Of a stretch of DNA of 20,208 nt, positions 1,931-20,208 are shown piece by piece. This stretch comes from Alphaproteobacteria bacterium (GTDB lineage: Bacteria; Pseudomonadota; Alphaproteobacteria; ATCC43930; CGMCC-115725). The stretch spans positions 1 through 20,208 of the forward strand of contig JASHUX010000424.1 of NCBI GenBank assembly GCA_030039775.1. The letters run 5' to 3'. Position 1 is the first letter of the stretch. Every line of letters begins with the position of its first letter. Made by a program: the position numbers and the translations under genes. The notes under the pieces were generated by a model. That model saw only the letters and a program-made list of their open reading frames with translations, was not told the origin of the DNA and did not search any database.

Positions 1931-3244
1931 TTAAACAACTTTAATCCCGGCTCCGGTCACCGGTCGAGAGGCGCGTAGCAGCACCGCATCCGACGCAACT
2001 GTACCGCGCGCGCCATCGCGGCAATAGCCCAGCCCCGGCACCGCCATAATACCACGATCGTCACGAAATGCGGCGGTCCCAATGCGCGCCGCCGCGGGCA
2101 AGGTCCGTGCCGCTTCGTTAATTTTAACCGGGCCGAGCGCGCCCAAAATCAAGCCGCTCGGCGCGTCGGCAGGCAGGGCGACCCTGAATCGGCCATCCCA
2201 ATTAACTTTTGTACCGGGACCCACGGGCACGGACGCCGCCAGCGCCTTCCCTTCCCGGCAAAGCAATAAGCGGCCCCGATGGGGCACAATCCGGCATCCG
2301 CCGAGTGTGCGCCCGCGCGTCAATCCGGTCACAACTTCTTGATACAGGTGCTCAAGCCGTTCCATCCGCGGCGCGTAATCCGCGCCGCCGACCGCCATCA
2401 GCATGGCCGCCAGCGCCCGCAATCCGACCTCCTCGGGCGCCGCAGCCAAAGGCGCCGGGTCGAACTCGATGAAACCGGCAGGATCGGGCGTCGCAGAGCG
2501 GGCCAAGAGTTGCGCCAGCGGTCGTTCGAGTGCCTGACGCGCGCGAGCCAAGCGCCGGGCCGTCGCCGCAAGGCGTGCCGCGCTCAATCCTTCGCGGGCC
2601 AAGATAGCGCGGCCGTGCCGCAGTCGGACACGCGCGAACTTGTCGTTACGATTGCTCTGATCTTCGAACCATGTCTGGCCAAGTGCGGTGAGCGTCGCGA
2701 CCAGACGGGCGTGTGGAAACGACAACAACGGCCGCAGCAAACGGCAGGAGGGTCGTTCGGCGATCGCCGCCATCGCCGCCAACCCATCAAGGCCGCTGCC
2801 GCGAGCGAGGCGCAGTAAGAACGTCTCGGCTTGGTCGTCCTGGTGGTGCGCGAGCAATAGGTGAAAAACCCCCGCCTCCGCGCACCATTCTTCAAGCAGG
2901 CGGTAACGGGCCGCGCGCGCCGCTGCTTGGATGCCCGCCGTTGGTTTCGGACCGCCCCAGCGCAACGTATGATGCGCGATGTCGTGGGACGCCGCCCATA
3001 CGCCAACCTGCGCCGCCTCCGCACAAGATTCCGGACGCAGCCCGTGATCGACAGTGAGTGCGATGACAAGCCCTTGTCGTGCCGCCGCCCATTCTTGGGC
3101 CAGCAACAGCAACGCCATGCTGTCGGCGCCGCCCGAAACCGCGACTGCTACGCGCGGCGCGCGCTCGAACGAACCGAGCGCCGCCATCGCCGCGCCGAAT
3201 TCCACGGCCGTTAGCGGCCTCGCTCGCGCCGGCCGGGCGCTCAA
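1931..3244 (-). CDS. tilS: tRNA(Ile)-lysidine synthase TilS
   Basis: Attaches lysine to C34 of the tRNA-Ile with anticodon CAU, using ATP, so that it reads AUA and is charged with isoleucine. The 437 residues match the E. coli length (about 430). The PP-loop SGGADS is at residues 37-42, VDHGLR at 65-70, and the conserved AHHQDDQAET at 132-141. These mark the N-terminal adenylation domain; the C-terminal half is more divergent. The start is uncertain: TTG at 3244 keeps the longest N-terminus and leaves ten bases after the cpoB stop, but GTG at codon 14 and ATG at codon 20 also lie before the PP-loop and no strong ribosome site decides. The gene sits between cpoB and ftsH, probably co-transcribed with both. 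Confidence 0.94.
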   Translation of the reverse strand: MSARPARARPLTAVEFGAAMAALGSFERAPRVAVAVSGGADSMALLLLAQEWAAARQGLVIALTVDHGLRPESCAEAAQVGVWAASHDIAHHTLRWGGPKPTAGIQAAARAARYRLLEEWCAEAGVFHLLLAHHQDDQAETFLLRLARGSGLDGLAAMAAIAERPSCRLLRPLLSFPHARLVATLTALGQTWFEDQSNRNDKFARVRLRHGRAILAREGLSAARLAATARRLARARQALERPLAQLLARSATPDPAGFIEFDPAPLAAAPEEVGLRALAAMLMAVGGADYAPRMERLEHLYQEVVTGLTRGRTLGGCRIVPHRGRLLLCREGKALAASVPVGPGTKVNWDGRFRVALPADAPSGLILGALGPVKINEAARTLPAAARIGTAAFRDDRGIMAVPGLGYCRDGARGTVASDAVLLRASRPVTGAGIKVV

Positions 3245-3254
3245 GACGGCATGC

Positions 3255-4076
3255 CTAGCGGCATGATGCCTTGCGCTTCTCGTCGGCTTCCTTAGCCTTC
3301 AGGTTAGCCGGCGCGATCGGAAAGTCGCGATCAAGCTGCGCGAAAGAACGACAGGCGTCGGCTCGGCGACCGAGCATCGACAAGGAGCTGCCGAGCTTCA
3401 ATAGATCGTCGGCGGCCTTGGGCCCCTTCGGATAGCGCTGATAACCCTCGGCGAACGCCGCGGCGGCGGCCTGGAAATTGCGCCGCACATAGTAGGTTTC
3501 TCCGAGCCAATACTGGGCATTGCTCGACAAGCGGTTGTCGGGATAGCGATGGATAAAGTCGCGCAGGGCGCGTTCGGCCGCGGCATAGTTCGCATCGCGC
3601 AACAGACCGAACGCATAGTCGTACTGCTGCTGCGGCGAGCCGTTCGGCAGGGTTCCGGTATCGGCCGCGGGCGGCTCGCCCGCCATCGCCGTCTGGTTCG
3701 ATGGCGGCGCACCGGCATTGCGATTGCGCTGCGGCGGCGTCAGAACCGGCGTCTGACTGTTCATCGCGGTTGGAGGGGGATTACCGCCCAAGGTGGCGCC
3801 CCCATTCGCCTGCTCGAGTGCCTGCAAACGCCCGTCATAGTCGGTTTGCATCTTGTCGAGACGCTGGTTCAGTACCTCGACCGTATGCTGCAAATCCTCA
3901 ATGCGCCCGGTCATTTCGCGCATCTGGTCGCTCAATTGGTCGAATCGCATCTCGTCCCTAGCCGCGGGCGGCTGCGGAGCGCCCATATCTGCGTCTTGGT
4001 CCTGCTGCGCGAACGTGCCTTGCGCGCTCGTCGCCAACGCGATGCTGGTGAAGGCGACTAGAAACAATTTTTTCAT
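3255..4076 (-). CDS. cpoB: Tol-Pal system coordinator CpoB (YbgF)
   Basis: Periplasmic protein that couples the Tol-Pal machine to peptidoglycan synthesis during outer-membrane constriction. The 273 residues start with a Sec signal peptide (MKKLFLVAF, hydrophobic core, cleavage near residue 24 after TFA). A heptad-like coiled coil at about 42-90 fits the trimerisation segment of the family. A Pro/Asn-rich linker follows, and then three TPR units over about 145-270, with the characteristic YPDN, YWLGETYY and YPKG signatures. The ATG at 4076 is preferred over an upstream in-frame start at 4148 because it begins the signal peptide. The gene lies downstream of pal, as is usual, but the gap is 153 bases and contains a strong hairpin, so its expression may be partly uncoupled from pal. 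Confidence 0.93.
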   Translation of the reverse strand: MKKLFLVAFTSIALATSAQGTFAQQDQDADMGAPQPPAARDEMRFDQLSDQMREMTGRIEDLQHTVEVLNQRLDKMQTDYDGRLQALEQANGGATLGGNPPPTAMNSQTPVLTPPQRNRNAGAPPSNQTAMAGEPPAADTGTLPNGSPQQQYDYAFGLLRDANYAAAERALRDFIHRYPDNRLSSNAQYWLGETYYVRRNFQAAAAAFAEGYQRYPKGPKAADDLLKLGSSLSMLGRRADACRSFAQLDRDFPIAPANLKAKEADEKRKASCR

Positions 4077-4133
4077 GGTGCCTGGCCGGAATGAGTTCAG
4101 GCGGCACGACCGTGACAGCCCGCCGCCAAACGA

Positions 4134-4162
4134 ATTCTTAGCCAACAATGCCGGCGAAACAA
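4134..4162 (-). promoter_or_regulatory. Possible weak promoter for cpoB
   Basis: Minus-strand TTGTTT and AAGAAT are separated by exactly 17 bases, just downstream of the pal/cpoB hairpin and about 60 bases before the cpoB ATG. Both hexamers are imperfect (3/6 and 4/6 against the sigma-70 consensus). The position after a likely terminator is what makes it worth noting. Confidence 0.28.
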
Positions 4163-4201
4163 GGGCGCCGGCTCCACCCTCATATGGCGAAGCCGGCGCC
4201 C
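4163..4201 (-). terminator. Hairpin between pal and cpoB, probable intrinsic terminator or attenuator
   Basis: A perfect 11-base-pair GC-rich stem (GGGCGCCGGCT with AGCCGGCGCCC) closes a 17-base loop, 28 bases after the pal stop codon. On the minus-strand transcript it is followed by CUUGUUU. The T-rich tail is short, so it may terminate only partly or act as a 3' end stabiliser for the abundant pal message. Confidence 0.6.
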
Positions 4202-4229
4202 ATCGGTAACGTTAAGCCGGGCCGAGTCG

Positions 4230-4715
4230 TCAGTTGATGACGGTGATGCCGACGCGGTTCTGTGCCCAGGCCTGTTCGTTATCGCCGACGACGATCGGCC
4301 GCTCCTTCCCGTAGGAGATGACGGCGACCCGGTTGCCTGCGACGCCGAGGCTGACCAGCATCCGCTTGACCGCATTGGCGCGGCGATTGCCGAGCGCGAG
4401 GTTGTATTCGCGGGTGCCGCGGTCGTCACAATGACCTTCGATCGTGACGGTCACGTTCTGATAGCGCTTCAGCCAGTCTGCCTGCTTCTGCAACGTCGCC
4501 TGGCCCTCGGGCGTGATGTCGCTGTGGTCAAACTCAAAGAACACGCGATCGCCGACGTTCTGCACGAAATCCTGGCGCGAACCGGGAACCGCCGTGTTCG
4601 TCTGCATTGTCTGCGTTTGACCGCCGCCCGCGGTTCCGCCGCCGGTAGTCGGCGTCTGTGAACAGGCGGCGACGAGCAATAGCGCTGCGAGCAAGGCAAA
4701 TGGACCCAGATTCAT
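4230..4715 (-). CDS. pal: Peptidoglycan-associated lipoprotein Pal
   Basis: Outer-membrane lipoprotein that binds peptidoglycan and TolB and is gathered at the division site by the Tol complex. The 161 residues start with a lipoprotein signal ending in LLLVAAC, with the lipidated Cys at residue 18. A short Thr/Gly/Gln linker follows, and then an OmpA-like domain with the family signatures FEFD, EGHCDDRGTREYN and LGNRRA. The start is ATG 4715 with GAGGAG nine bases upstream; an in-frame TTG three codons earlier overlaps the region between that ribosome site and the ATG and is unlikely. It follows tolB by 136 bases, has its own likely promoter, and is followed by a terminator-like hairpin. Confidence 0.97.
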   Translation of the reverse strand: MNLGPFALLAALLLVAACSQTPTTGGGTAGGGQTQTMQTNTAVPGSRQDFVQNVGDRVFFEFDHSDITPEGQATLQKQADWLKRYQNVTVTIEGHCDDRGTREYNLALGNRRANAVKRMLVSLGVAGNRVAVISYGKERPIVVGDNEQAWAQNRVGITVIN

Positions 4716-4770
4716 CGTTCTCAACTCCTCGAAGGTGCGGCTGGATTACTCACGATAGAAACGACGGGCT

Positions 4771-4797
4771 GAACCCGCACGTTCCGGGTTTGGGTTC
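4771..4797 (-). other. Nested inverted repeat in the pal leader
   Basis: GAACCC at 4771-4776 and GGGTTC at 4792-4797 are inverted, and an alternative inner pair AACCCG/CGGGTT (4772-4777 and 4785-4790) closes a seven-base loop. The two pairings are mutually exclusive. No U-run follows on the transcript, so this is not an obvious terminator; it lies in the untranslated leader expected from the promoter at 4835-4863. Confidence 0.35.
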
Positions 4798-4834
4798 GCA
4801 TTATCGCCTATGGTGAGGTCCGAAGACGCGCGGG

Positions 4835-4863
4835 ACTATAAGTGCGAGAATCTAGGGAATCAA
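4835..4863 (-). promoter_or_regulatory. Likely sigma-70-type promoter for pal
   Basis: On the minus strand TTGATT (4863-4858) and TATAGT (4840-4835) are separated by 17 bases. They match the consensus in 4/6 and 5/6 positions. The -35 box is inside the last codons of tolB. The start point would be near 4828, giving a leader of about 112 bases before the pal ATG. An internal promoter would let pal exceed tolQRAB in output. Confidence 0.5.
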
Positions 4864-6189
4864 GGGGGACCATGCCGGATCAGACGCATCTTGCGGTGTC
4901 ACGACCTCGCGTTCGTTGTAGCCGGTAAGATCGATGGTCCACAGGTGGCTATGGCCGCCGCTGCCGTTCGACTGGGCGGGGGTACTTTTGAAGTACATCA
5001 GTACCCGCCCGTTAGGCGCCCAGGTCGGCCCTTCGACCGAAAAGGCGCTGGTGAGGAGTCGTTCGCCCGTACCATCGGGATGCATGACGCCGATATAGAA
5101 TTGGCCGCCTTCGATTTTGGTGAAGGCGATCTGGTCGCCGCGCGGCGACCAGATCGGCGTGCCGTAAGCCGCTTTACCCTTGCCGAAGGTGATGCGGTGA
5201 ATATCGGTGCCGTCGGAATTCATCACGTAGAGCTGCTGCGATCCGCCCCGGTCGGAATTGAAGACGACTTTGGCGCCGTCAGGCGAATAGCACGGCGACG
5301 TATCGATCGCGGACGTGTCGGTGAGCCGCACCGCACGCCGCGTCCGCAGGTCGAGCGTGTAGATATTGGTGGCGCCGCCGACCGCGAGACTCATGATCAC
5401 CTTGTTGCCGTCGGGCGAAAAGCGCGGCGCGAAGGTCATGCCCGGGAAATCGCCGAGCACCTCTTGCTGGCCGGTATCGATGTTGAATAGGTAGACGCGC
5501 GGCGCTCCGCGCGCATAGGAGAGATACGTGATCTCTTGCGAGGTCGGCGAAAAGCGCGGCGTCAGCACCAGGTTGTGACCGTCGGTTAGATAGCGGTTGT
5601 TGGCGCCGTCCTGGTCCATGATAGCCAGGCGCTTGATGCGATGCTGCAGCGGTCCGCTTTCCGACACATAGACGATATGCGTGTTAAAATATCCGTCTTC
5701 GCCGGTGATGCGCTTGTAAATCGCGTCGGCGACGATATGCGCGATCTGCCGCCAGCGATCCCTCGTCGCGGTGTAGCGCAGGCCGGTAAGCTGCTGCTCG
5801 GCGAAAATATCCCAAAGCCGGAATTCGACCGCGAGCCGCCCGTCCGGCTGGACCGTGACGTTGCCGGTGACCAGCGCCTGTGCATTGAGGATCCGCCAGT
5901 TGGCGTAATTGGGCGGCGTGCGGGTCGCCGTGTCTTTATCGACAAACGCGCGCTGATCCAGCGGCTTGAAGAGGCCGGATCGCTCGAGATCCGCAGACAG
6001 CACCTCCGTGATGTCGTGGCCGATCTGCGTGCCCTCGTCTGTGCCGGCGAGATCCGGAATCGCGATCGGCAGCGGCTGAACCTGGCCGTGCGTCAAGTCG
6101 AGATGGAGCTCGGCGCGCGCCACGGGAGCGGCGAACGTCACCACGAGCGCGATCACGGCGACGACGGGAGCGGAAGCAAAACGAATCAT
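4852..6189 (-). CDS. tolB: Tol-Pal system periplasmic beta-propeller TolB
   Basis: Periplasmic protein that binds Pal and TolA and regulates Pal mobility and peptidoglycan binding. The 445 residues begin with a signal peptide cleaved after ARA at residue 26. The N-terminal alpha/beta domain (with the DLERSGLF signature) is followed by a six-bladed propeller with repeated FSPDG, YSPDG and SPRGDQI type motifs. The ATG at 6189 overlaps the tolA stop as ATGA, which fixes the start; a longer in-frame ORF from 6234 would place the signal peptide internally and is rejected. The last codons carry the -35 box of the pal promoter. Confidence 0.97.
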
Positions 6190-7097
6190 CCAGCGATATC
6201 CTTGGGGTCGAAGGTGATGGTGAAGGTTTGCCACTCGTTATATTTGTCCAGCGGCAATTTGAGGGGCGAGCAAGCCGGGTTCAGCAAGGCACGGCGCGCG
6301 GAATCCGCGGCGGCGCGGAAAAACGGATCGCCGTAGCGGTCGGTATTGAGCAGCTGAACCCCGCGTACGGTCGCATCGGGATTCATCGTGACGCGGAATT
6401 CGGGCGTCAAGTCGGCTGCGCCCTGCGCGCCTGCTGGAACGTTCCAGCATTGCTCGATCTGCTGTTTCACGAGATCGAGCTCGCTCGCGGTCAATTGCGC
6501 GCCAAGTGGGGCGATGGGTTGCGACGACGTCCGTACTTGTTGGTTGGCCGGCTTAGGCTGGGGCGGCTGATTCCGCGTCGGATCGTTCTTCGCCAAATTT
6601 TTTAGCAGCGAATCGAACTGCTGAGTCTGATCGGGCTGTTCCTTCGGCGGTTGCGGTTTCGGCGGCGGCACCGTCACGTTCACCGGTTTTACATCCGGCG
6701 GCGCCTGCGGCTTTATCGCCGGGATCGGCGGGATCGGAGTCGGCGGCATCGGCTTCGGCTGGGGCGCCGGCGGCGTCGGCGTCGCAAGCTGTGGTTCAGG
6801 GGGCTTCACCACCGGCGGCGGCACAGGCTTCGGCTCCACCTTGGGGGGCGTCGGCATCGGCGGTTCCGGCTTCGGCGGCGGCACCGCTTCGGCGACTTCA
6901 GGCTTGGCCTCGGGTGTCGGCGGTGTTTTGGTCAGTTGGGTGGCGCGCGTCTCGGGCCCGATCTTCACCAACTGCACCACCAGCGGCGTCTCTTCGGGCA
7001 GCGGATGACGGAACAGGTTCGGCAGACCCACAAGGAATATCAGCACCAATCCCAGGTGCAGAATCCCCGACGCGATATACCCGCTGCGTTCCGGCAT
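6186..7097 (-). CDS. tolA: Tol-Pal system protein TolA with proline-rich spacer
   Basis: Inner-membrane protein that transduces proton-motive force from TolQR to TolB and Pal across the periplasm. The 303 residues show one N-terminal membrane helix (about 7-25) with the SxxxH pair (S10, H14) used to contact TolQR. A very proline-rich region follows at about 50-165, then a TolA/TonB-like C-terminal domain at about 205-303 containing [17 protein letters not shown] and the final [10 protein letters not shown]. The spacer is made of PPKPEP-type repeats and not the Ala/Lys/Glu-rich helical rod of E. coli TolA, so it looks more like a TonB linker. ATG 7097 is chosen; a TTG at 7106 overlapping the tolR stop is an alternative. 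The gene overlaps tolB by four bases. Confidence 0.93.
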
Positions 7098-7102
7098 TGC
7101 AC

Positions 7103-7582
7103 TCAAGGTTGTTTCGGCGCACTCGTTTGGTTCGGTGCCGGGGGCGTAGCACCGGATTGTGTCGGTTCGGTGATCAACGAAACCTTGTCGAAGCCCGCTG
7201 CACTGACCATACCCATGATCTGCATGACGCGGCCGTAATTGATGGCGCGGTCGCCACGGACATAGATGTCGGCGTTGGGGTTGGACTTGGTGATTGCTTG
7301 CAGCCGCGGAACGAGTTGATCGTCTGAGATTGCGTCGTTTTGGATGAACATTTGGCCTTGGGCATTGACGGTGATGACCAACGGCTCTTGCGGTTGGTTA
7401 ATTGCCGGCGCCTGAGTCTGCGGCAAATCGACCGGCACGCCGACCGTCAGCAACGGCGCCGCTACCATGAAAATCACCAAGAGAACGAGCATCACGTCGA
7501 CCATCGGCGTGACATTGATGTCGCTCATCGGGCGATAGCGGTGATTGCTGCCCCTTTTGGTTTGCTGAAGGGTAACGGCCAT
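7103..7582 (-). CDS. tolR: Tol-Pal system protein TolR (ExbD family)
   Basis: Inner-membrane partner of TolQ in the proton-driven motor. The 159 residues have a short cytoplasmic tail, a single membrane helix at about 28-46 with the proton-carrying Asp at residue 29 in VTPMVDVMLVLLVIFM, and a periplasmic domain with IYVRGD, a typical ExbD/TolR signature. ATG 7582 lies three bases after the tolQ stop. Neighbours are tolQ upstream and tolA downstream. Confidence 0.96.
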   Translation of the reverse strand: MAVTLQQTKRGSNHRYRPMSDINVTPMVDVMLVLLVIFMVAAPLLTVGVPVDLPQTQAPAINQPQEPLVITVNAQGQMFIQNDAISDDQLVPRLQAITKSNPNADIYVRGDRAINYGRVMQIMGMVSAAGFDKVSLITEPTQSGATPPAPNQTSAPKQP

Positions 7583-7584
7583 GG

Positions 7585-8322
7585 TCAGGCTTTCTCGTCG
7601 AGCTGCCGCGACAGGATCGCGCTGAATTCGGTGGCGAAACCCTCGAGCCGCCCGGCATAGCGGCTGAAATCGGTCGAGTACTTGTTATAAGCAATGACCG
7701 CCGGAATCGCGGCCACCAAACCGAGCGCGGTCGCGAACAATGATTCGGCGATGCCCGGCGCCACCACGGCGAGGCTGGTGTTTTTGGCGGCGGCGATCGA
7801 CTGGAAGCTGTTCATAATGCCCCAGACCGTGCCGAACAGGCCGACGAACGGCGCCGTGGCGCCGACCGTGGCGAGAAACGGCATGAAGCGCTCGAGCCGA
7901 TCCATCTCGCGACCCAGCGTCACCTGCATGACGCGCTCGATGCGTTCCTGGAGACCGGTCTTGGTGCCGGTATTGGGCACCCTCCCGCGTGCCGCGGTTC
8001 GCCGCCACTCCCGCATCGCGGCCGCGAAGACTGCGGACATCGGGTCCGCCGGGCGGTTGCCGATGCGGTCGTAGAGATCGTCGAGCGAACCGCCCGACCA
8101 AAACGTTTCCTCGAAGCTTTCGGCGTCGCGGCGCAGGCGGCGGAGCTTGGTGAGCTTGTCGAAAATCACCGCCCACGACCAGAACGACGCGAGCAACAGC
8201 AGCACGCAGACGATCTTCACGACAAGGTCGGCTTGGAGAAACAGCGTCACGATCGACAAATCGTGCGGTACCGCGCCCGCCCCCGCGAGCGCGACCTGAC
8301 TGACGGCGTTTGAACCTTCCAT
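7585..8322 (-). CDS. tolQ: Tol-Pal system protein TolQ (MotA/ExbB family)
   Basis: Proton-channel subunit of the Tol motor in the inner membrane. The 245 residues contain three hydrophobic helices: about 33-54, and two more in the second half within the family signature VGATAPFVGLFGTVWGIM and in the segment ending in GLVAAIPAVIAYN. The cytoplasmic loop between helices 1 and 2 is large, as expected. ATG 8322 lies two bases after the ybgC stop. Length is close to the 230-240 residues of the family. Confidence 0.97.
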   Translation of the reverse strand: MEGSNAVSQVALAGAGAVPHDLSIVTLFLQADLVVKIVCVLLLLASFWSWAVIFDKLTKLRRLRRDAESFEETFWSGGSLDDLYDRIGNRPADPMSAVFAAAMREWRRTAARGRVPNTGTKTGLQERIERVMQVTLGREMDRLERFMPFLATVGATAPFVGLFGTVWGIMNSFQSIAAAKNTSLAVVAPGIAESLFATALGLVAAIPAVIAYNKYSTDFSRYAGRLEGFATEFSAILSRQLDEKA

Positions 8323-8324
8323 GT

Positions 8325-8747
8325 CTACTCTTCCGTTGAGTTACCGTTGTGGAGCGAAGCGAACGCGGCGGCGATCGCGGCCGGCAAGCGCCGCGGCTTG
8401 GCGTCCCGGCCGAGACAGGCAATGCGCAGGGCGAAGCGCACAAGCGGTCGGTCGCCGCGCCGAACCTCTTGATCCAGCTCGAGCGACGCGCCACGGAGAT
8501 GCGTCACTTCCGTCGCCACCGCCAACTCGTCGTCAAGCCGTGCCGGCTGCAGATATTCCGCGACGAGCCGGCGCACGACGAACAGCAGACCGGCTTCGCC
8601 GCGCAATTTTTCCCGCTCGATGCCGAGATGGCGCAACATTTCGGTACGCGCACGCTCCGCGAACTTCAGATAGTTGGCGTGATACACGAGGCCGCCGGCA
8701 TCGGTATCTTCCCAATAGACGCGGAGATTGTAGAGGTGCGCGGTCAT
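8325..8747 (-). CDS. ybgC: Acyl-CoA thioesterase YbgC, Tol-Pal operon
   Basis: Hot-dog-fold thioesterase, cytosolic, that hydrolyses acyl-CoA or acyl-ACP; it heads the tol operon in many Gram-negative bacteria. The 140 residues match the family length. The 4-hydroxybenzoyl-CoA thioesterase-type signature [15 protein letters not shown] at residues 13-27 holds the expected catalytic Asp16. The ATG overlaps the ruvB stop as ATGA, and the stop is two bases from the tolQ start, so translation is likely coupled on both sides. The natural substrate is not visible from sequence. Confidence 0.94.
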
Positions 8748-9796
8748 CCCGCTTCCGCTTCGTCGTCGAGAAGATCGAGCTGCGCGGACGGCGTCCGCAG
8801 CGGCACCAAACCCAAATGGCGATAGCCGCGATCGGTCAAGAGACGGCCGCGCGAGCTGCGCTGCACCAATCCTTCCTGCATCAAATAGGGTTCGATCACT
8901 TCCTCGATCACGTCGCGCTCTTCCGACAGCGCCGCCGCCAGCGTCTCGGCGCCGACCGGCCCGCCGCCGTAGCTCTCGGCGATGCAGGTCAAATACCGCC
9001 GATCGATGGCGTCGAGGCCGCTCTTGTCGATATCGAGCCGCACTAATGCGGCATCCGCCACCTTCGCGTCGATCTTTTTCGCATTCGATACTGCGGCGAA
9101 ATCGCGCACGCGCCGTAAGAGCCGCACCGCAATCCGGGGCGTACCGCGCGCCCGCGACGCGATCTCCGCCGCGCCGTCGAGCTCAAGCGGCATGCCCAGC
9201 AAGCCCGCGCCACGCGACACGATCTGACGCAGTTCCTCAGCCGTGTAGAAATCGAGGCGCAGCGGAATGCCGAAGCGTTCGCGCAGTGGTCGCGTGATCA
9301 AGCCCGAGCGCGTCGTCGCCCCGACGAGGGTGAAGGGCTGAAGGTCGATGCGCATCGAGCGGGCCGCCGGACCCTCGCCGATAATAATATCGAGTTGGAA
9401 ATCCTCGATCGCGGGATAGAGCACTTCTTCGACCGCCGGGGCCAGGCGATGAATCTCGTCGATGAACAACACGTCATGCGGCTGCAAATTAGTCAGCAGC
9501 GCGGCAAGGTCGCCGGCGCGCTGGATCACCGGACCGGATGTGGCCCGGAACCCGACGCCCATTTCGCGGGCGACGATTTGAGCCAGCGTCGTCTTGCCAA
9601 GACCCGGCGGTCCATGGAGCAGCACATGATCGAGCGGTTCACGTCGCGCCTTGGCGGCGGCGATGAAGACGCGCAGATTCTCGCGCTGCTTGGCCTGGCC
9701 GATGAAATCGCCGAGCGATTGCGGCCGTAGGCCGACTTCGGCGGCATCCTCCGCCTCGGGCTGCGGCGCCACCGCGCGCTTGCCGTCAGCACTCAC
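8744..9796 (-). CDS. ruvB: Holliday junction branch migration helicase RuvB
   Basis: AAA+ motor that, with RuvA, drives branch migration of four-way junctions in recombination repair. The 350 residues fit the family. Walker A GPPGLGKT is at residues 62-69, Walker B DEIH at 113-116, and the sensor-1 segment GATTRSG follows; the C-terminal winged-helix domain includes [14 protein letters not shown]. The start is GTG at 9796, overlapping the ruvA stop as GTGA. The gene is fused by overlap to ybgC, linking the recombination and Tol genes into one transcription unit. Confidence 0.98.
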
Positions 9797-10386
9797 CGTC
9801 CCAGCTCCCGCAAGCCCGCACGCACCAGGGCGTCGATCTTGGCGTCACCGCCGAGGCGCTTCGCCGCGTCCATCACGGCACCATAGGCGGCGCTCTTGGC
9901 GTAGCCGAAATTCACCAGCGCCGAGACCGCATCGGCGACCGCACCCGACGGTGTTACGACGCCGCTGGCAACCGGCGCAGCGACGTCGCCGACCTTGTCG
10001 CGCAATTCCATGACAATGCGTTGACCGAGCTTCGGCCCGACGCCGTCGGCGCGCACGAACGCAGCTTTGTCTTGCGCCAGAATCGCCGTCGCCATCGCAC
10101 CGGGATCGAGCACCGACAGGATCGCCAGCGCGACTTTGCCGCCGACGCCTTGCACGGTTGTCAGCAAGCGGAACCAGGATCGTTCCGCGGCATCGACGAA
10201 ACCGAACAATTGAATCCGATCCTCACGGATTTGCGTTTCGACCAGCAGCTTCAGCGGCTGACCGATCTTCGGCGCACGGCTTAATGTCCGCGATGAGGCA
10301 TAGACAAGATAACCGACGCCGTTGCAGTCGAGCACCACCGTCTCGTCGCCGATCTGATCGACCAGGCCCGAAAGCATCGCAATCAT
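9793..10386 (-). CDS. ruvA: Holliday junction DNA-binding protein RuvA
   Basis: Tetrameric junction-binding subunit that positions RuvB rings on the DNA. The 197 residues show the N-terminal OB-fold start (MIAMLSG), two helix-hairpin-helix elements containing [14 protein letters not shown] and [12 protein letters not shown], and a C-terminal RuvB-contact domain with [11 protein letters not shown]. The ATG overlaps the ruvC stop as ATGA. Nothing departs from the family except a short linker of Ala/Val/Gly character before domain III, which is normally variable. Confidence 0.97.
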
Positions 10387-10883
10387 GATACGGCTTCCGC
10401 CTTGTCCCAGATGCGATTGGTCTGAATGTGATGCGCGTGACAGATGGCGACGGCGAGCGCGTCGGCGGCATCGGCAAGTGCCTGTGTGCCGGGCAAGAGC
10501 ATCCGCACCATCACCTCGACCTGATGCTTGTCGGCATGACCGGCCCCGACCACTGCCTTCTTGACCAGATTGGTGGAATACTCCGCAACGGAAATGCCTT
10601 TCAGCGCCGGCGCAAGCAGCGCCACGGCCCGCGCCGAGCCAAGCTTCAGAGTCGAACCCGGATTCTTGTTGAGGAAGGTCTCCTCCACAGCCGCCGCATC
10701 GGGATTATAGGCGGCAAGGACTGCGCCCAGCCCCTCGAACAATTCGACCAGCCGCTCCGCTAGCGTGCCGCCGGATCGCGTGTGGATCGCGCCGTCGGCG
10801 ACGTGGCGCAAACGATTGCCGTCGACGGCAACCACGCCCCAGCCGGTATGCCGCAGACCCGGATCGAGACCGATGATGCGCAT
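10383..10883 (-). CDS. ruvC: Holliday junction resolvase RuvC
   Basis: Dimeric endonuclease that cuts four-way DNA junctions. The 166 residues match the family. The four acidic metal ligands are all present: D7 in GLDPGL, E67 in AVEETF, D138 and D141 in the C-terminal helix ahead of [12 protein letters not shown] 10883 is chosen because it starts directly at the first strand MRIIGLDPG; an upstream in-frame GTG at 10910 would overlap the yebC stop and add nine unconserved residues. A minus-strand AGGTGG lies about ten bases upstream. yebC ends 27 bases before this start. Confidence 0.97.
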
Positions 10884-10910
10884 TTCCCCGTTCCACCTAC
10901 CCGCGCGCAC

Positions 10911-11660
10911 TCACGCGCTCAACCGTGCCATGGCCTCGTCGGTCATGTCGAAGTTGGCGTAGACGTTCTGGACATCATCATTGTCTTCGAGCGTTTCGAG
11001 GAGCCTTATCAGCGACTCGGCCATCTCGCCCTCGACCGCTGTAAGCGATTTCGGTTTCCAAACGAGCTTGGCCGACGTCGCGGGACCCAAAGCCTTTTCC
11101 AAGGCGTCGCACACCGCATTCAGGTCGTCGGGAGCGCACATCGTCCGATGCCCGTCGGCATCGCTTTCGACATTGTCGGCACCAGCCTCGACCGCCGCCT
11201 CGAACATGGCATCAGGGGTAGCGGCCGCCGCGGGGTAAACGATCTCGCCGACATGGTCGAACATGAAGCTGACGGAGTTGCTTTCGCCGAGATTACCTCC
11301 GGACTTGGTGAAGGCGGCGCGCACCTCGCTGGCGGAGCGGTTGCGGTTATCCGTCAGCGCCTCGACGATGACGGCGATGCCGCCCGGGCCGTAGCCCTCA
11401 TAGCGCACTTCTTCGTAATTCTCCTGGCCTTCGCCGCCGGCGCCGCGCTTGATCGCGCGCTCGACCGTGTCCTTCGGCATGTTGGCCGACCGCGCGGCAA
11501 TCACGGCGGCGCGCAATCGCGGGTTGGCCGCAGGGTCGGGAAGGCCGCTGCGGGCCGCCGTCTTCAATTCTCGGATCAGCTTGGTGAAAACCTTGGCGCG
11601 CTTTTTATCCTGCGCGCCCTTGCGGTACATAATATTCTTGAATTGCGAATGGCCAGCCAT
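10911..11660 (-). CDS. yebC: YebC/PmpR-family protein (TACO1-like)
   Basis: Cytosolic three-domain protein. Family members have been described as transcription regulators, and TACO1 as a translation activator; newer reports link YebC to translation through difficult, including proline-rich, stretches. The 249 residues start with the signature [20 protein letters not shown] and contain the conserved RYEGYGPGG at about 105-113. ATG 11660 is clear. It precedes ruvC, an arrangement common in proteobacteria. Its 160-base leader holds a large inverted repeat ending 11 bases before the ATG. The presence of a polyproline TolA downstream is suggestive but proves no functional link. Confidence 0.96.
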
Positions 11661-12989: not shown

Positions 12990-13163
12990 CCGGCCGCGCG
13001 TATAGGTTGGCGTGGCGGCTACGAGCGCGGACAAAAGCAAGTGGATGGAGCCGCGACGGCCGTCGGTATGCTTACCCTCGCGGCCCGCTTTCGCAGGTCG
13101 GGGGCAATGTACCGAAGCCACGGCTCCGGCAGGGACAGCCCCCTCGAGGTGAATATCGGCCCC
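12990..13163 (-). ncRNA. ssrS: 6S RNA (SsrS), approximate ends
   Basis: RNA that mimics an open promoter and binds sigma-70 RNA polymerase. Evidence is position and structure: it fills the 302-base gap directly downstream of zapA on the same strand, the classical place for ssrS. On the minus strand GGGGGCU can pair with AGCCGCC (one mismatch) as a closing stem. GUCCCUGCC and an unpaired stretch ending UUUUGUCCGCGCU form a central bubble, and GGAGCCG pairs with CGGCUCC as the upper stem. The 5' side GGCUGUCCCUGCCGGAGCCG resembles the E. coli CAGUCCCCUGAGCCG. CCAACC/GGUUGG near 12984-13010 may be the 3' hairpin. Ends are estimates, and a covariance search would be needed to set them. Confidence 0.72.
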
Positions 13164-13213
13164 GGGGTATCTGCGACCTAACGCGCCGCGCAGCCCCATC
13201 CATTCTGTCCGAC

Positions 13214-13519
13214 CTATATCTTGGCGCCCTCGAGCCGTTCGGCAACGGTTTCGATGCGCTTCGCCAGCGCCTTGATACCGTCGGCGAAGGCGTCCGGGCT
13301 ATGCCCGTTCATGCCGCCTTTTGCTTCGGCGAGTTCGTCCGCCATGGTCAGCAGCGTCATTACCAAAAGACGGGACTCGCCAGTTTGGCCTGCTTGTGCG
13401 CCGAATTTCCGGATACGGCTGTCAACGCCGCGCGCCAACTCTCGGATTCGCGCTTCCTCGCCCGGCCCGCAGCCGATCGAGTACTCGCGGCCGTTCAGCG
13501 AAATAGAGACTTGTGCCAT
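13214..13519 (-). CDS. zapA: Cell division protein ZapA
   Basis: Small cytosolic protein that cross-links FtsZ filaments at the division ring. The 101 residues begin MAQVSISLNGREYSIGC, the typical start of alphaproteobacterial ZapA, followed by the globular segment with VDSRIRKFG and a C-terminal helix at about 50-100 suited to the coiled-coil tetramer (VMTLLTMADEL...AKRIETVAERLEG). ATG 13519 overlaps the stop of the upstream small gene by one base (TGATG), which indicates coupled translation. The 6S RNA gene follows. Confidence 0.94.
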   Translation of the reverse strand: MAQVSISLNGREYSIGCGPGEEARIRELARGVDSRIRKFGAQAGQTGESRLLVMTLLTMADELAEAKGGMNGHSPDAFADGIKALAKRIETVAERLEGAKI

Positions 13520-16031: not shown

Positions 16032-16060
16032 CGATTTCTGCCTGGCGGGAGAGAGGTGGC

Positions 16061-17260
16061 TTGAGCAACTGGCAACTCGACCGGCTTCCGGGGGACGTAC
16101 GTCTGGAAGCTGAAAATGCCGCGCAGCGGGACGGTCTGCCGCTGCATCGTTGGCTGGGACAACTGATTCGTTTGACTTGCGACGAGGAGGGTGTGCCGCT
16201 GGCGCGCGAATTGACGCGCGGGGCGTCGGGCCAGGCCGCAGGCAATGGACATCGTCAGCAGCCCGTCATGCCGATTCGGCTGCCCGTCGAACCGATCCGC
16301 ATTCCGCCGCAGGCACGCGCAATCGACCCCGCTGAACAGCGGACGGCGGCTCGCGCTGATATCGGGCATCGCACCGGCAACGGTCAGGCCACATCGATTC
16401 CTGAGGACCCAGCGCGCGCGCCAGAACTGCCTCGAAGGCCGCCGGAACGCATCGCGCTGGTCGCTCGCGACGAGAGGTCCGATCAACTGGAGGCCGCGCG
16501 GACGGTGGGGCAATCGCCGCGGGCCATGAGCGCCCGGGAAAAACTCGCGGCGGCAGCCGCTCCAATTGCCCGATCGAGCGAGCCTGGCCGCTCCTATCAG
16601 CCGCCGCGTCAATCCGCCCCCGTGTCCCGCGAGAGCGGCGAGCGCGAGCCGCTTGTTCGGGAAATTCCTCAGCCCACAGCCGCGCCGGCCCCCTCGCAAA
16701 TTTACGTGCAACGGCCTGCGGCTCGGTTATCCACTATATCCTCGTTATCCATCACCCCGAATCCTGTCGCGCCGCCGACGCCGCGCGGGATGCCGCCGAT
16801 CTTGCCGGTGCAGTCGGCATCCGTGCCAAGCCGGTTCGCGGAAACGGCACCGCCGGCCCGGCAGGAGCGTGTCGCGCCGTCGATCTCAGCATCGGCTGCA
16901 TCGCCGCCACCGGCGTCAACGGTGCCGGCAGCCGTGCGCTCCGATGAACGGTTGTCGGCGTTGGCGAAGCTAGTTCAGGGGCTTCGGCGAAACGAATTGT
17001 CGCCGATCGGCGAGGCGCGCCTGTTCCTGAAGCTGATGACCGAGCAGATGGCGCCGATTGGCGACATCACCGTCGTGACCGGCCGCACCAAGGAGCAGGT
17101 CGCGCGGTCGCTTCGGCTCTTGGGTCTGTCGGACCGCCTGCGCGATCTGATCGACCGCGGCGCCCTGTCTCGCGAGCAAGCTTTCGCGCTCCTCGACACC
17201 GACGATCCGGACACAACCAAGCCCGTGATACCGCCGAGCGGTGGACATCGTACGCCATGA
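16061..17260 (+). CDS. ParB/KorB-HTH-like protein with N-terminal PodJ-like motif
   Basis: Not a named family. The 399 residues have three parts. Residues 4-37 form a helix-turn-helix-sized motif (LPGDVRLEAENAAQRDGL, then HRWLGQLIR) like the start of PodJ-type polarity proteins. Residues 40-290 are Pro/Arg/Ala-rich and probably disordered. Residues 298-379 look like the central DNA-binding domain of ParB/KorB: LVQGLRRNELSPIGEAR, then VVTGRTKEQVARSLRLLGL, then RGALSREQAFALLD. The ParB CTPase domain with its GERR motif is absent, as are membrane segments. The start is TTG at 16061, with GAGAGG about five bases upstream. Its stop overlaps the next ATG as ATGA, so the two products are likely made together. 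DNA binding is an inference from similarity. Confidence 0.72.
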   Translation: MSNWQLDRLPGDVRLEAENAAQRDGLPLHRWLGQLIRLTCDEEGVPLARELTRGASGQAAGNGHRQQPVMPIRLPVEPIRIPPQARAIDPAEQRTAARADIGHRTGNGQATSIPEDPARAPELPRRPPERIALVARDERSDQLEAARTVGQSPRAMSAREKLAAAAAPIARSSEPGRSYQPPRQSAPVSRESGEREPLVREIPQPTAAPAPSQIYVQRPAARLSTISSLSITPNPVAPPTPRGMPPILPVQSASVPSRFAETAPPARQERVAPSISASAASPPPASTVPAAVRSDERLSALAKLVQGLRRNELSPIGEARLFLKLMTEQMAPIGDITVVTGRTKEQVARSLRLLGLSDRLRDLIDRGALSREQAFALLDTDDPDTTKPVIPPSGGHRTP

Positions 17261-19089
17261 GCCTCGACTCCGACACCGACGATCCAAGACGGAACCTTTC
17301 AGCACTTCGCTGGGACGCCGCCTGGATTGATCCGGCGTTGCGGCGGATGGCGGAGGCGGCGGCGGAACGCGCGGGTATCGGTGTCGAGTCATGGATCGAG
17401 CGCGCTATCCGCAAGCAGTGCGGCATGCCGGAGGCGCGCTATCCCGCCCAGCCGGCGGTGGCAGCGCCTGCGAATTTCTCCGCCGCACTCAGTGGTGCAA
17501 GGCGCAATGTCGCCCAGGAGCCCGTCGCGCCGCAGCTCCGCGCGCCGCCGCGCAGTGCAGCGCAGTCGGGTCCGCGTCGCGGTGTCGAGGACGAGGAACC
17601 CCTGGCGCTGACGGAGTTGGTCGACCGTGTCCCCGACCGCCTGCCACGACGTCCGCCGCAACCCCGACCGCAGCCGCAACCGCAACCACGCGGCATGTCG
17701 GTGTTCTGGGCCGCGGGCATCGCCGCGGTACTAGCGTTTCTCGCCGTGATGGCGGTGCGCGACCCGGGCTTGTTGGAGGGACGTTTCCTTACCGCCGACA
17801 ATCAGACCGACCGTATCGGCGCGCCGGCGACCGATGCGGACAAAGAGGCGGTGCCATTGCATGTGACGACCGCGAAGCCGGCGGACAATCCCACCCGCGT
17901 CGCCATTCTGCCGCCGCCGTCGGCGATCACGACGCTGCCCGGCGACAACGCCGGCCCGACGGTTGCCCGCGCGACGGATCTCCCGCCGCCGATCGCGAAG
18001 TCGCCAAGCAATGTGGCGGTGCAGCCAGCCTCACCCGGCATGGTCGCCGAGATTCCGCCACCGCCGACCGTGACCGTACCGGAGACCAACGCGCCGTCGA
18101 CGCAAACCACGGCCGCGGCGCCGGGTCCGGTACCGGTAATGCCGCCGGAGCCAGTAAAGAAGACAGCACCACCGGTGCAAATGGCCGCGCTACCCTCACC
18201 ATCGCCGGCGCCTTCTCCTGGACCGGACGCGTCGGTAGCTGCAACGGCGCCGCAGCCTCTGGTGGTTGCGCCGCCCGAAACAACGCCACCCGCGCCCGCG
18301 TCATCGTCAGTCGCGGTGCAACCGCTGGCCCCAGTTGTGGCACCGGCCTCGGCGCCGGCGACTGCCGCTACGGCGTCAGGGCCGCAATCGGTCGCCACCG
18401 AGGCGCCAAGCCAAGTGGCGATGGCCCCGGCCGCCGTCCCGGCACCGCCGCCCGCGCCCGCGCATCAAGACGGACCTGCCGCCGACGCGGCCGCCGATGC
18501 ACGGTTGGCCGCCGACCTCGAGGCGAAAGTCCGCGCGGGCGATCATGTCGCCGAGTATCGGCTTGGCATCCTGTACGCCTTGGGCAAGGGCGTGACGCGA
18601 GACTATGACCGTGCCGCGAAGCTGCTGCGGGCCTCGGCGGAATCCGGTTTGGCCGAAGCCGAATACGATTACGGCGTGCTGTGCGATAAGGGCCTTGGCG
18701 TGCCGCGCGACGCGGCGGAGGCCGCTCGCTGGTACGGCAAGGCGGCGCAGAAAGGGCATCCGCCGGCGGCGCTCAATCTTGGCTATGCCTATGCTGAAGG
18801 CTTGGGCGTCACGCGCAATCTGCCGGAAGCCGCACGCTGGTTCCGTCGTGCGGCCGAGGCTGGCCTGATCAACGCCCAATTCAACCTCGCCTATATGTAC
18901 GAACAAGGCGCGGGCCTGACCAAGTCGGCAATCGACGCCTATGCTTGGTACAGCATCGCGGCGGAAAGAGGCGACCAGGGCGCACAGCAAGCATTGGATC
19001 GCATCGCGGCAAAATTGACGCCGCGCGAACTGCAGACGGCCAAGGCGCGAATCAAGGCGATGAAGCGCTCGATCCGGGTCCAGAGCTGA
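17257..19089 (+). CDS. Single-pass membrane protein with PodJ-like N-motif and periplasmic Sel1 repeats
   Basis: The 610 residues show, in order: the same kind of N-terminal motif as the preceding gene (residues 23-54, WIDPALRRMAEAAAERAG, VESWIERAIRKQ); a basic Pro-rich stretch (PRPQPQPQPRG); a membrane helix at 149-167; a Pro/Ala/Thr/Val-rich region at 170-415; four Sel1-type repeats at about 429-572 (LGILYALGKGV, YGVLCDKGLGV, LGYAYAEGLGV, LAYMYEQGAGL); and a short helical tail. Positive charge before the helix predicts an inside N-terminus and periplasmic repeats. This layout recalls PodJ and other Sel1 localisation factors of alphaproteobacteria, although the long coiled coil is missing. 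ATG 17257 overlaps the previous stop, and the 3' end overlaps ispE by 38 bases. Confidence 0.85.
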   Translation: MSLDSDTDDPRRNLSALRWDAAWIDPALRRMAEAAAERAGIGVESWIERAIRKQCGMPEARYPAQPAVAAPANFSAALSGARRNVAQEPVAPQLRAPPRSAAQSGPRRGVEDEEPLALTELVDRVPDRLPRRPPQPRPQPQPQPRGMSVFWAAGIAAVLAFLAVMAVRDPGLLEGRFLTADNQTDRIGAPATDADKEAVPLHVTTAKPADNPTRVAILPPPSAITTLPGDNAGPTVARATDLPPPIAKSPSNVAVQPASPGMVAEIPPPPTVTVPETNAPSTQTTAAAPGPVPVMPPEPVKKTAPPVQMAALPSPSPAPSPGPDASVAATAPQPLVVAPPETTPPAPASSSVAVQPLAPVVAPASAPATAATASGPQSVATEAPSQVAMAPAAVPAPPPAPAHQDGPAADAAADARLAADLEAKVRAGDHVAEYRLGILYALGKGVTRDYDRAAKLLRASAESGLAEAEYDYGVLCDKGLGVPRDAAEAARWYGKAAQKGHPPAALNLGYAYAEGLGVTRNLPEAARWFRRAAEAGLINAQFNLAYMYEQGAGLTKSAIDAYAWYSIAAERGDQGAQQALDRIAAKLTPRELQTAKARIKAMKRSIRVQS

Positions 19090-19921
19090 GCACACTGGCG
19101 GCGACCCACCAAGACGGATGAGCCTCGCGCAGTCGGCGTGCCGCGGTCGCGGCTCCGTCGGATGCGGCGAACAATGCGAAGCATGTTGCGCCGCTGCCGG
19201 ACATGCGAACCAACAGCGCGCCATCGATTGCCGCCAAGGCGCGGAGCACCGTCCCGATCTCCGGCAAGAGCGCGATCGCGGCGCCGGTTAAATCATTGTT
19301 TCGCTCGGCAAGGCTCCTGGCGAACGCGGGGGTGCCATCCGGGATGGGAAATCGCGCCGGCGGCGAGAACGGGCCCTTGAATGCGCGGTAGACCGACGCG
19401 GTCGGCAACGCGACGCCGGGATTGACCAATACAACGCCGCACCGCGGCAATGCGCCTGCGCGGTCTATGCGATCGCCGACTTCACTTATCCACACCGGCC
19501 GCGCCTCTAAACACGCCGGGACGTCGCTGCCGAGCATGCCGGCGATCGATGTTAGGGTCTTCACATCATCGCAGTGCCACAGCCTGGCCAGCGCCTTGAG
19601 GCAAGCGGCCGCATCGCTCGAACCGCCGCCGATGCCCGATGCCACCGGCAGGTTCTTGGTGAGTGAGATCGCGACATCGGGCCGCCGCGCCAACCCGGCG
19701 GCAAAAAGTTCTGCCGCGCGCCAAACCAGGTTGCCGCGGGCGTCGCCCTCGAGCGCGGCCGCGAACGGACCGTCGATGGCAAGGCTTAAATCCGTGGCCG
19801 GCGCGACCGTGACTTCGTCGCCGATCGACGCGAACGCGACCAGTCCGTCGAGTAGATGAAAACCGTCATCCCGCCGGCCGGTAATGTGGAAATAGAGATT
19901 GAGCTTGGCGGGCGCGAAAAT
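19052..19921 (-). CDS. ispE: 4-diphosphocytidyl-2-C-methylerythritol kinase IspE
   Basis: GHMP kinase of the MEP pathway to isoprenoid precursors; it phosphorylates CDP-methylerythritol with ATP. The frame encodes FAPAKLNLYFH at the N-terminus, the nucleotide loop PVASGIGGGSSDAAA at about 92-106, GSDVPACL with the catalytic Asp at about 133, and the C-terminal MSGSGATCFALF. From ATT at 19921 it has 289 residues, the usual family length. The start is odd: a TGA lies in frame nine bases upstream, and between it and the AP(A)K motif there is only CAC CAC ATT TTC. The first standard codon, TTG 19693, would remove the substrate-binding N-terminus. Either ATT is used, or one base is extra near 19916. 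The 3' end overlaps the Sel1 gene. Confidence 0.9.
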   Translation of the reverse strand: MFAPAKLNLYFHITGRRDDGFHLLDGLVAFASIGDEVTVAPATDLSLAIDGPFAAALEGDARGNLVWRAAELFAAGLARRPDVAISLTKNLPVASGIGGGSSDAAACLKALARLWHCDDVKTLTSIAGMLGSDVPACLEARPVWISEVGDRIDRAGALPRCGVVLVNPGVALPTASVYRAFKGPFSPPARFPIPDGTPAFARSLAERNNDLTGAAIALLPEIGTVLRALAAIDGALLVRMSGSGATCFALFAASDGAATAARRLREAHPSWWVAASVLSSGPGSSASSP

Positions 19922-19927
19922 GTGGTG

Positions 19928-20208
19928 TCACCCACCCTTGGCTTGCGGAGCGGCTGGCGATTGCCCCAGCCCGTGTTCGAGTTTGCTTTCGATCTTTGGG
20001 ATTTCGCCCGCCTCGGGCTTGAACAGCAGGGCCCGGTTCCACTGGAACCGCGCCTCGAGATGACGTCCGGTGGCCCAATAGGCGTCGCCGAGATGGTCGT
20101 TGATGGTTGGGTCTTCCGGCACCAGCTCGATCGCGCGTTCGAGATTCTGGGTCGCCTTGCCGTAGTTGCGGAGTCGGAAATAGGCCCAGCCCAGACTGTC
20201 GACGATGT
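19928..20208 (-). CDS. TPR-repeat protein, C-terminal part (5' end beyond window)
   Basis: The C-terminal 92 residues of a longer tetratricopeptide repeat protein. Seen: DSLGWAYFRLRNYGKAT, LERAIELVPEDP, NDHLGDAYWATGRHLEAR and WNRALLFKP, making two full TPR units and part of a third helix, then a charged tail ending QAKGG. This is the usual C-terminus of the large TPR protein found upstream of ispE in alphaproteobacteria, from memory; its role is not established here. Its TGA (19930-19928) is in the same frame as ispE and only six bases before the presumed ATT start of ispE. Confidence 0.9.
   Translation of the reverse strand, partial: IVDSLGWAYFRLRNYGKATQNLERAIELVPEDPTINDHLGDAYWATGRHLEARFQWNRALLFKPEAGEIPKIESKLEHGLGQSPAAPQAKGG

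Follow-up and report, generated by a model that had tools for sequence, protein, structure and literature searches.

Results

A coupled gene pair encoding a ParB-type and a Sel1 protein

We analysed contig JASHUX010000424.1 of assembly GCA_030039775.1, a stretch of 20,208 nucleotides (the whole of which we call the window) from an alphaproteobacterial draft genome (G000) that is 71% complete in 476 contigs and is probably metagenome-assembled. Our focus is on two adjacent forward-strand genes, P1 (16061..17260) and P2 (17257..19089). P1 starts with TTG behind a purine-rich, presumably functional Shine-Dalgarno-like stretch (16048..16056) and encodes 399 residues, comprising an N-terminal box, a Pro/Ala/Arg-rich linker and a ParB-type helix-turn-helix (HTH). 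P2 starts with ATG and encodes 610 residues, comprising a similar box, a transmembrane segment, a Pro-rich linker and Sel1 repeats. The P1 stop and P2 start overlap in an ATGA (17257..17260), as a preliminary description of this DNA had proposed in calling the genes translationally coupled, and an overlap of 1–4 nucleotides recurs in all 11 pairs of the window's family (f1), the window included.

The sole Pfam match of P1 is PF17762 (HTH_ParB) at residues 312–387 (16994..17221), with E=8.2e-9 and a score of 36 bits, above the cut-off of 22.6. When the last 107 residues are compared with PDB sequences, chains of ParB, Spo0J and Noc lead (best E=2.7e-6) and KorB chains match weakly (E=0.62 and 1.1). 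The preliminary description had read this region as a ParB/KorB-type HTH and had made a ParB profile match the test of that reading; the ParB half holds in both Pfam and PDB, and the KorB half finds little. It had also stated that P1 lacks a CTPase domain, in line with the Pfam scan, where neither ParB_N (PF02195, up to E=1) nor ParB_C matches. Among 31 database homologues, two of them with the source name 'Stellaceae bacterium', ten align over 98–100% of P1 at 40–64% identity. This, together with a ratio of nonsynonymous to synonymous substitution rates (dN/dS) of 0.075 for the HTH relative to the genus-mate G003, indicates that P1 is not a chance open reading frame (ORF). By this measure the HTH is under purifying selection relative to G003, less clearly so relative to the more distant G001; among the three segments of P1, dN is highest in the linker. 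A chance likeness to ParB can be ruled out by the Pfam and PDB matches, the homologues and the relatives with a whole ParB core described below. Nor is P1 the chromosome's own ParB: contig 151 of the same genome holds another ParB with ParB_N and all eight of the DNA-contact residues discussed below. No ParA was found among the part of the window ORFs that was scanned.

P2 matches PF08238 (Sel1) in four stretches (E=7.6e-36) at about residues 416–600 (18502..19056). Its one strong hydrophobic segment, at residues 149–167 (17701..17757), has a mean Kyte-Doolittle value of 2.51, and the earlier picture of a single-pass membrane protein with Sel1 repeats is borne out. The 15 residues before this segment contain two Arg and no acid, and the 15 after it two Arg, two Asp and one Glu, charges that weakly support what we consider the likely orientation, with the N-terminus inside and the Sel1 repeats outside. 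The Pro/Ala-rich linker (17764..18471) would then be periplasmic.

P1 and P2 share an N-terminal box with a predicted ribbon-helix-helix fold

Both proteins start with one common domain of about 45 residues, the N-box, which the preliminary description had overlooked. It covers residues 4–43 of P1 (16070..16189) and lies at 17299..17427 in P2. The P2 box matches the box profile at E=2.2e-17, with its own sequence inside that profile, and separate profiles of P1 and P2 boxes cross-hit each other in relatives. The predicted model of the box has an extended start and two helices, with no strand called in the monomer. Its PDB fold matches are led by ribbon-helix-helix (RHH) proteins, the best being Arc, CopG and PutA, with repressors and antitoxins common among the top structural hits. 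In a profile comparison with the FitA RHH, the box scores 17.5, and none of 49 column shuffles exceeds 9.8; the hhalign probability is 5%. Matches to curated families are weak (best E 2.8e-4 and 5.7e-4), fall below the curated cut-offs where these are shown (single members only) and are mostly of RHH type: NikA-like, HicB, FitA-like_RHH, PSK_trans_fac and TacA1. The best PDB sequence hit of the N-box profile is TssA (E=0.0028 and 0.027 over 21 residues), a hit that we regard as accidental, since the fold search leads to other proteins. We thus predict an RHH fold for the N-box. This fold is mostly a DNA-binding one and forms two-chain dimers; RHH domains often homodimerise and bind DNA.

P2 resembles PodJ-like proteins in architecture

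In class-wide draws of 385 genomes (with 17 candidates scored per genome for the box profile and five for the long N-box ParB search given below), the box profile matches 97. Twenty box clusters were picked by hand from these, strong or clustered hits being favoured. At least two box ORFs are present in 13 of the 20, ispE adjoins 13, box and Sel1 stand in one ORF in 15, and box and ParB_N in five, with an HTH match as well in four of those five. Among close relatives of the box-Sel1 protein at one such locus (L134), 'localization factor PodJL' is a frequent name given by the Joint Genome Institute (best 120 of 927 listed). PG_binding_1 lies at the C-terminal end in four of six box-Sel1 relatives tested. 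Because of the box-Sel1 layout, these peptidoglycan-binding ends and the PodJL-named relatives, P2 belongs with PodJ-like proteins in architecture. What it has in common with PodJ and 'localization factor PodJL' is the N-box, a disordered part, one transmembrane segment and Sel1 repeats, in the PodJ order of an N-terminal part, a single membrane passage and then repeats, on what would be the corresponding sides of the membrane. It differs in being shorter, and Pfam finds no peptidoglycan-binding domain in it.

Small box proteins of roughly 55–260 residues occur in many clusters (L119, L120, L122, L126 and L131 among them), one or more per cluster and beside ispE in many alphaproteobacteria; no Pfam match exceeded its cut-off in the four that were scanned. 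Elsewhere, G120 carries (L127, 2616–5012) a more divergent N-box ParB_N protein, whose HTH does not score, followed by a 1166-residue box-transmembrane-Sel1-peptidoglycan-binding protein. In three genomes of family f2 (G037, G039 and G040), a Sel1 protein has a FitA-like RHH gene at a distance of about 1.7 kb, which may be chance synteny.

P1 relatives document the loss of the ParB core

The preliminary description had also missed that relatives of P1 carry the CTPase domain. PF02195 is present in all four P1s scanned outside f1, and the P1s of families f115 and f18 are whole ParBs that show the GERRWRA and ENxQR motifs. TIGR00180 is above threshold in G155 (173 bits) and G056 (175 bits); ParB_C exceeds its cut-off in G155 and G257, lies just below it in G047 (family f9) and gives no match in G056. 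Within f1, six of ten P1s scanned, from genera g8, g9 and g10, have PF02195 between box and HTH (E 3e-19 to 1e-15), with altered motifs in the alignment. In genus g7 the domain is gone and P1 is 173 residues long (starts chosen by hand). In the window's genus, the Pro/Ala/Arg-rich linker replaces it; judged by alignment and composition, the low-complexity stretch at about residues 51–295 of the window's P1 (16211..16945) stands where some relatives have the CTPase domain. Since the orthologues that lie beyond the window's family have an entire ParB behind the same box, P1 is, on this sequence evidence, a ParB paralogue whose CTPase domain and most parS-contact residues have been lost in the window's lineage. 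The likeness to ParB/Spo0J is thus confined to the HTH in the window, extends to a full core in f18 and f115 and to a degenerate one in f9 and in g8–g10 of f1. The window's P1 departs from ParB/Spo0J in having an RHH domain in front, changed parS contacts, no ParB_N or ParB_C match and no ParA among the window genes scanned.

Long N-box ParBs were found in six of the 385 class genomes (G155, G257, G421, G056, G047 and G012), all at E 6e-111 or better and aligned from model position 1–6, the next match being at 1e-93 from position 53; this search misses short forms such as the window's P1. An N-box ParB and a separate ParB occur together in 12 of 17 genomes chosen mostly for having the former, whereas in G003 and G056 the N-box form was the only one seen. 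In a ParB-core tree of 36 rows, from which six core-less P1s were left out, no N-box ParB groups with its genome's second ParB. With bootstrap not settled and long branches for G047 and G012, this tree does not separate one origin from two. A genome scan with the window's P1 as query gave no match, and one with G155 P1 gave 20 loci: its own MAG (metagenome-assembled genome), one close relative that matches at 92% starting from residue 19, and 18 that align only from residue 52 or later.

Pairing of P1 and P2 across relatives

Ten of 20 loci fetched from homology hits have a boxed P1 followed by P2 (in G001 the start of P2 lies at the contig end). The window's order comprises 43 genomes, with ispE found in 40, and we scanned 36 of these ispE loci, leaving out G015, G030, G031 and G033. 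The pair is present at 11 (in G001 on two contigs) and a fusion at one, in G012. Four loci have a Sel1 gene with neither box nor P1, and at one (G008) the contig stops within a Sel1 gene. Neither P1 nor P2 was seen at 19 of the 36, four of which have only 0.5–1.1 kb beyond ispE, so that absence there is weak. The G012 protein carries a second, P2-like box at the end of P1, with no transmembrane segment and no Sel1; three database proteins (P0032–P0034) have the same layout, P0032 being identical to it. Every N-box P1 seen within the order comes with P2 or, in the one genome, with the fused P2-type box, so the finding that might have told against a functional pair, that the genes lie apart in most relatives, did not emerge. 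This conserved pairing rules out accidental adjacency. The G012-type fusion is the best evidence that both boxes work together; joint absence helps less.

Surroundings of the pair

Envelope and recombination genes (tol-pal, ruv) lie near the pair in the window, in a minus-strand row from tilS to yebC (1931–11660) that holds tilS, ybgF/cpoB, pal, tolB, tolA (weak), tolR, tolQ, a ybgC-like thioesterase gene, ruvB, ruvA, ruvC and yebC. A 6S RNA gene (13044–13199, minus strand; Rfam 58 bits) adjoins a ZapA gene (13214–13519, minus strand) and YmdB; 6S RNA is also present close to these same two genes at three further loci (L034, L035 and L036). The ispE frame (19052–19928) has no ATG, GTG or TTG before 19693, and its homology starts directly after the preceding gene's stop at 19928, pointing to an unusual start or a sequence error. 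A 594-residue ORF at 150–1934 has no Pfam match up to E=1 and no NCBIfam match up to 0.01.

Discussion

A candidate DNA-envelope tether

We propose, with a probability of roughly 50%, that P1 is an RHH-ParB adaptor docked on the PodJ-like scaffold P2 and that the two form a DNA-envelope tether. P1 would have changed from a ParB paralogue into an adaptor whose partner is P2, a PodJ-like scaffold of the inner membrane. We infer that the RHH domains of the two proteins pair, or form mixed dimers, which would dock cytoplasmic P1 on P2; the whole mechanism depends on this step. The coupled start would match the amounts of the two proteins, and the HTH of P1 would hold DNA, tethering a chromosome region at an envelope place marked by Sel1. 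In other alphaproteobacterial families, the complete ParB form of P1 could tether as a parS-loaded cytidine triphosphate (CTP) clamp. For the window's own lineage, a flexible linker would have taken the place of that domain, and the tether would be CTP-independent, with another, probably weaker DNA preference. The earlier idea of a link from DNA to the envelope gains from the PodJL-named proteins that share the box and from the P1 orthologues that are complete ParBs, and loses from the state of the DNA contacts in the window's P1.

These contacts are among several points that weigh against a tether. In Caulobacter, ParB contacts parS through Q162, G170, K171, S172, R173, N178, G201 and R204 (PMC7383237). 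The window's P1 keeps one of the eight, G170. All eight are kept in 22 of 25 separate ParBs (seven in the other three) and in all four N-box ParBs of f115 and f18; the 13 P1s of f1 and f9 keep only 0–2. With one contact left, binding to centromere-like DNA cannot be assumed for the window's P1, which we expect not to read parS, though it may read something else. The window holds no parS-like site with three or fewer mismatches (the best has four), and no palindrome common to the regions upstream of P1 was seen in 14 loci. A parS-like site with three mismatches occurs at L039, and a site resembling a Noc-binding site (NBS), with one mismatch, at L130, though no N-box ParB is found there; the site search gave no convincing parS or NBS near the locus. 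The dN/dS of the HTH is 0.38 relative to G001. Pairing between P1 and P2 is not required, because RHH domains often form DNA-binding homodimers, and the AlphaFold2 model of the fusion (P0032; pLDDT, the predicted local distance difference test score, 69.8; pTM, the predicted template modelling score, 0.47) gives no docking information. The joint absence of the two genes is thin: among the four loci concerned, the Sel1 protein of G005 has its hydrophobic segment at residue 17 and looks secreted, and the gene of a fifth, G008, is truncated where its contig stops. Since the box occurs in 97 of the 385 genomes but the long N-box ParB in six, by a search that misses short forms, P1 does not belong to the system invariably. 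Finally, the window's genome also encodes PopZ, the known ParB anchor, and the tether would therefore be an addition to PopZ and not a substitute. PopZ (PF10691) was found in 34 of 37 genomes searched, G000 included (absent in G005, G047 and G056), so P1 as a PopZ stand-in is not supported.

An alternative, to which we give about one chance in four, is that P1 no longer binds DNA and is a ParB-derived structural subunit that controls P2 assembly or abundance through RHH pairing, its HTH serving protein contacts. Seven of eight parS contacts are gone in the window and six to eight in all 13 P1s of f1 and f9, the window's P1 has no CTPase or ParB_C match, and no conserved DNA site was seen near the locus. 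However, relative to G003 no other part of P1 is conserved as well as the HTH, and most f1 P1s keep an Arg at two of the Caulobacter DNA-contact positions (171 in 11 of 12, 178 in 10 of 12). It is rather improbable that P1 is a transcription regulator, with RHH and HTH binding operators and controlling its own operon and P2 in the manner of RHH antitoxins. The generally DNA-binding nature of the fold, the repressors and antitoxins among its structural matches and the position of P1 as first gene of the pair would suit such a role; yet the same box is carried by the membrane protein P2 and heads PodJL-named scaffolds, it occurs in two or more ORFs in most of the clusters, and the regions upstream of P1 show no shared palindrome.

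Slightly less probable still is nucleoid occlusion of the Noc type, in which P1 would bind scattered sites and P2 would bring the DNA to the membrane, keeping division off the nucleoid instead of marking a pole. Noc is a ParB relative (PMC7383237); it is a CTPase that binds both DNA and membranes and assembles nucleoprotein complexes associated with the membrane (PMC8429893). A zapA gene lies nearby, and the Noc model (TIGR04285) outscores parB_part for the window's P1 (36.5 versus 25.8 bits) and for the P1s of G056 (205 versus 175) and G155 (207 versus 173), all of these falling below the Noc cut-off of 315. Against this, the Noc specificity set Q173/K179/K184/R201 reads K, S, G, E in the window's P1, and the architecture of P2 is PodJ-like. 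The proposed tether resembles Noc in that a ParB-type protein would bring DNA to the membrane; Noc uses CTP and its own amphipathic helix (PMC8429893), whereas P1, which has no CTPase domain, would use a partner membrane protein.

Relation to known systems

Similarity to Arc, CopG, PutA, MatP and ParG lies in the predicted fold of the N-box. Unlike in these RHH proteins, the box here heads a ParB paralogue and a membrane scaffold, and contact of its strand with DNA is putative. Among the matches listed from the open-licence literature, judged by titles and the starts of abstracts, none describes a ParB-Sel1/PodJ pair or an RHH-ParB, which agrees with the preliminary description, whose author knew of no system with this layout. 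A 2025 survey of the ParB fold treats orphan ParBs and domain fusions in general (PMC12704722), and the words 'ribbon', 'Sel1' and 'PodJ' do not occur in the main text as available. The parts are of known kinds; as far as we have seen, the combination of an RHH-ParB with a PodJ-like protein is undescribed.

To our knowledge, most of what is understood about how alphaproteobacteria fasten the chromosome to landmarks of the envelope concerns PopZ and its partners. The influence of PodJ on where ParB-parS is placed runs through PopZ, and the available text of the same paper describes no ParB paralogue in PodJ's own operon (PMC10127582). It is tempting to speculate, tentatively and with less assurance than for the tether itself, that the pair represents a second route from centromere to envelope, in which the RHH head of a ParB paralogue docks directly on the RHH of a PodJ-type scaffold without ParA or PopZ, and which was rebuilt CTP-free in the window's lineage by exchanging the clamp for a linker. 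That a ParB paralogue is coupled with a PodJ-like protein, and that a dimer-type domain is common to both, suggests that the two are in direct physical contact. The stepwise loss of the ParB CTP switch can be followed inside one gene neighbourhood, and the shared box suggests what the N-terminal box of PodJL-type proteins may do.

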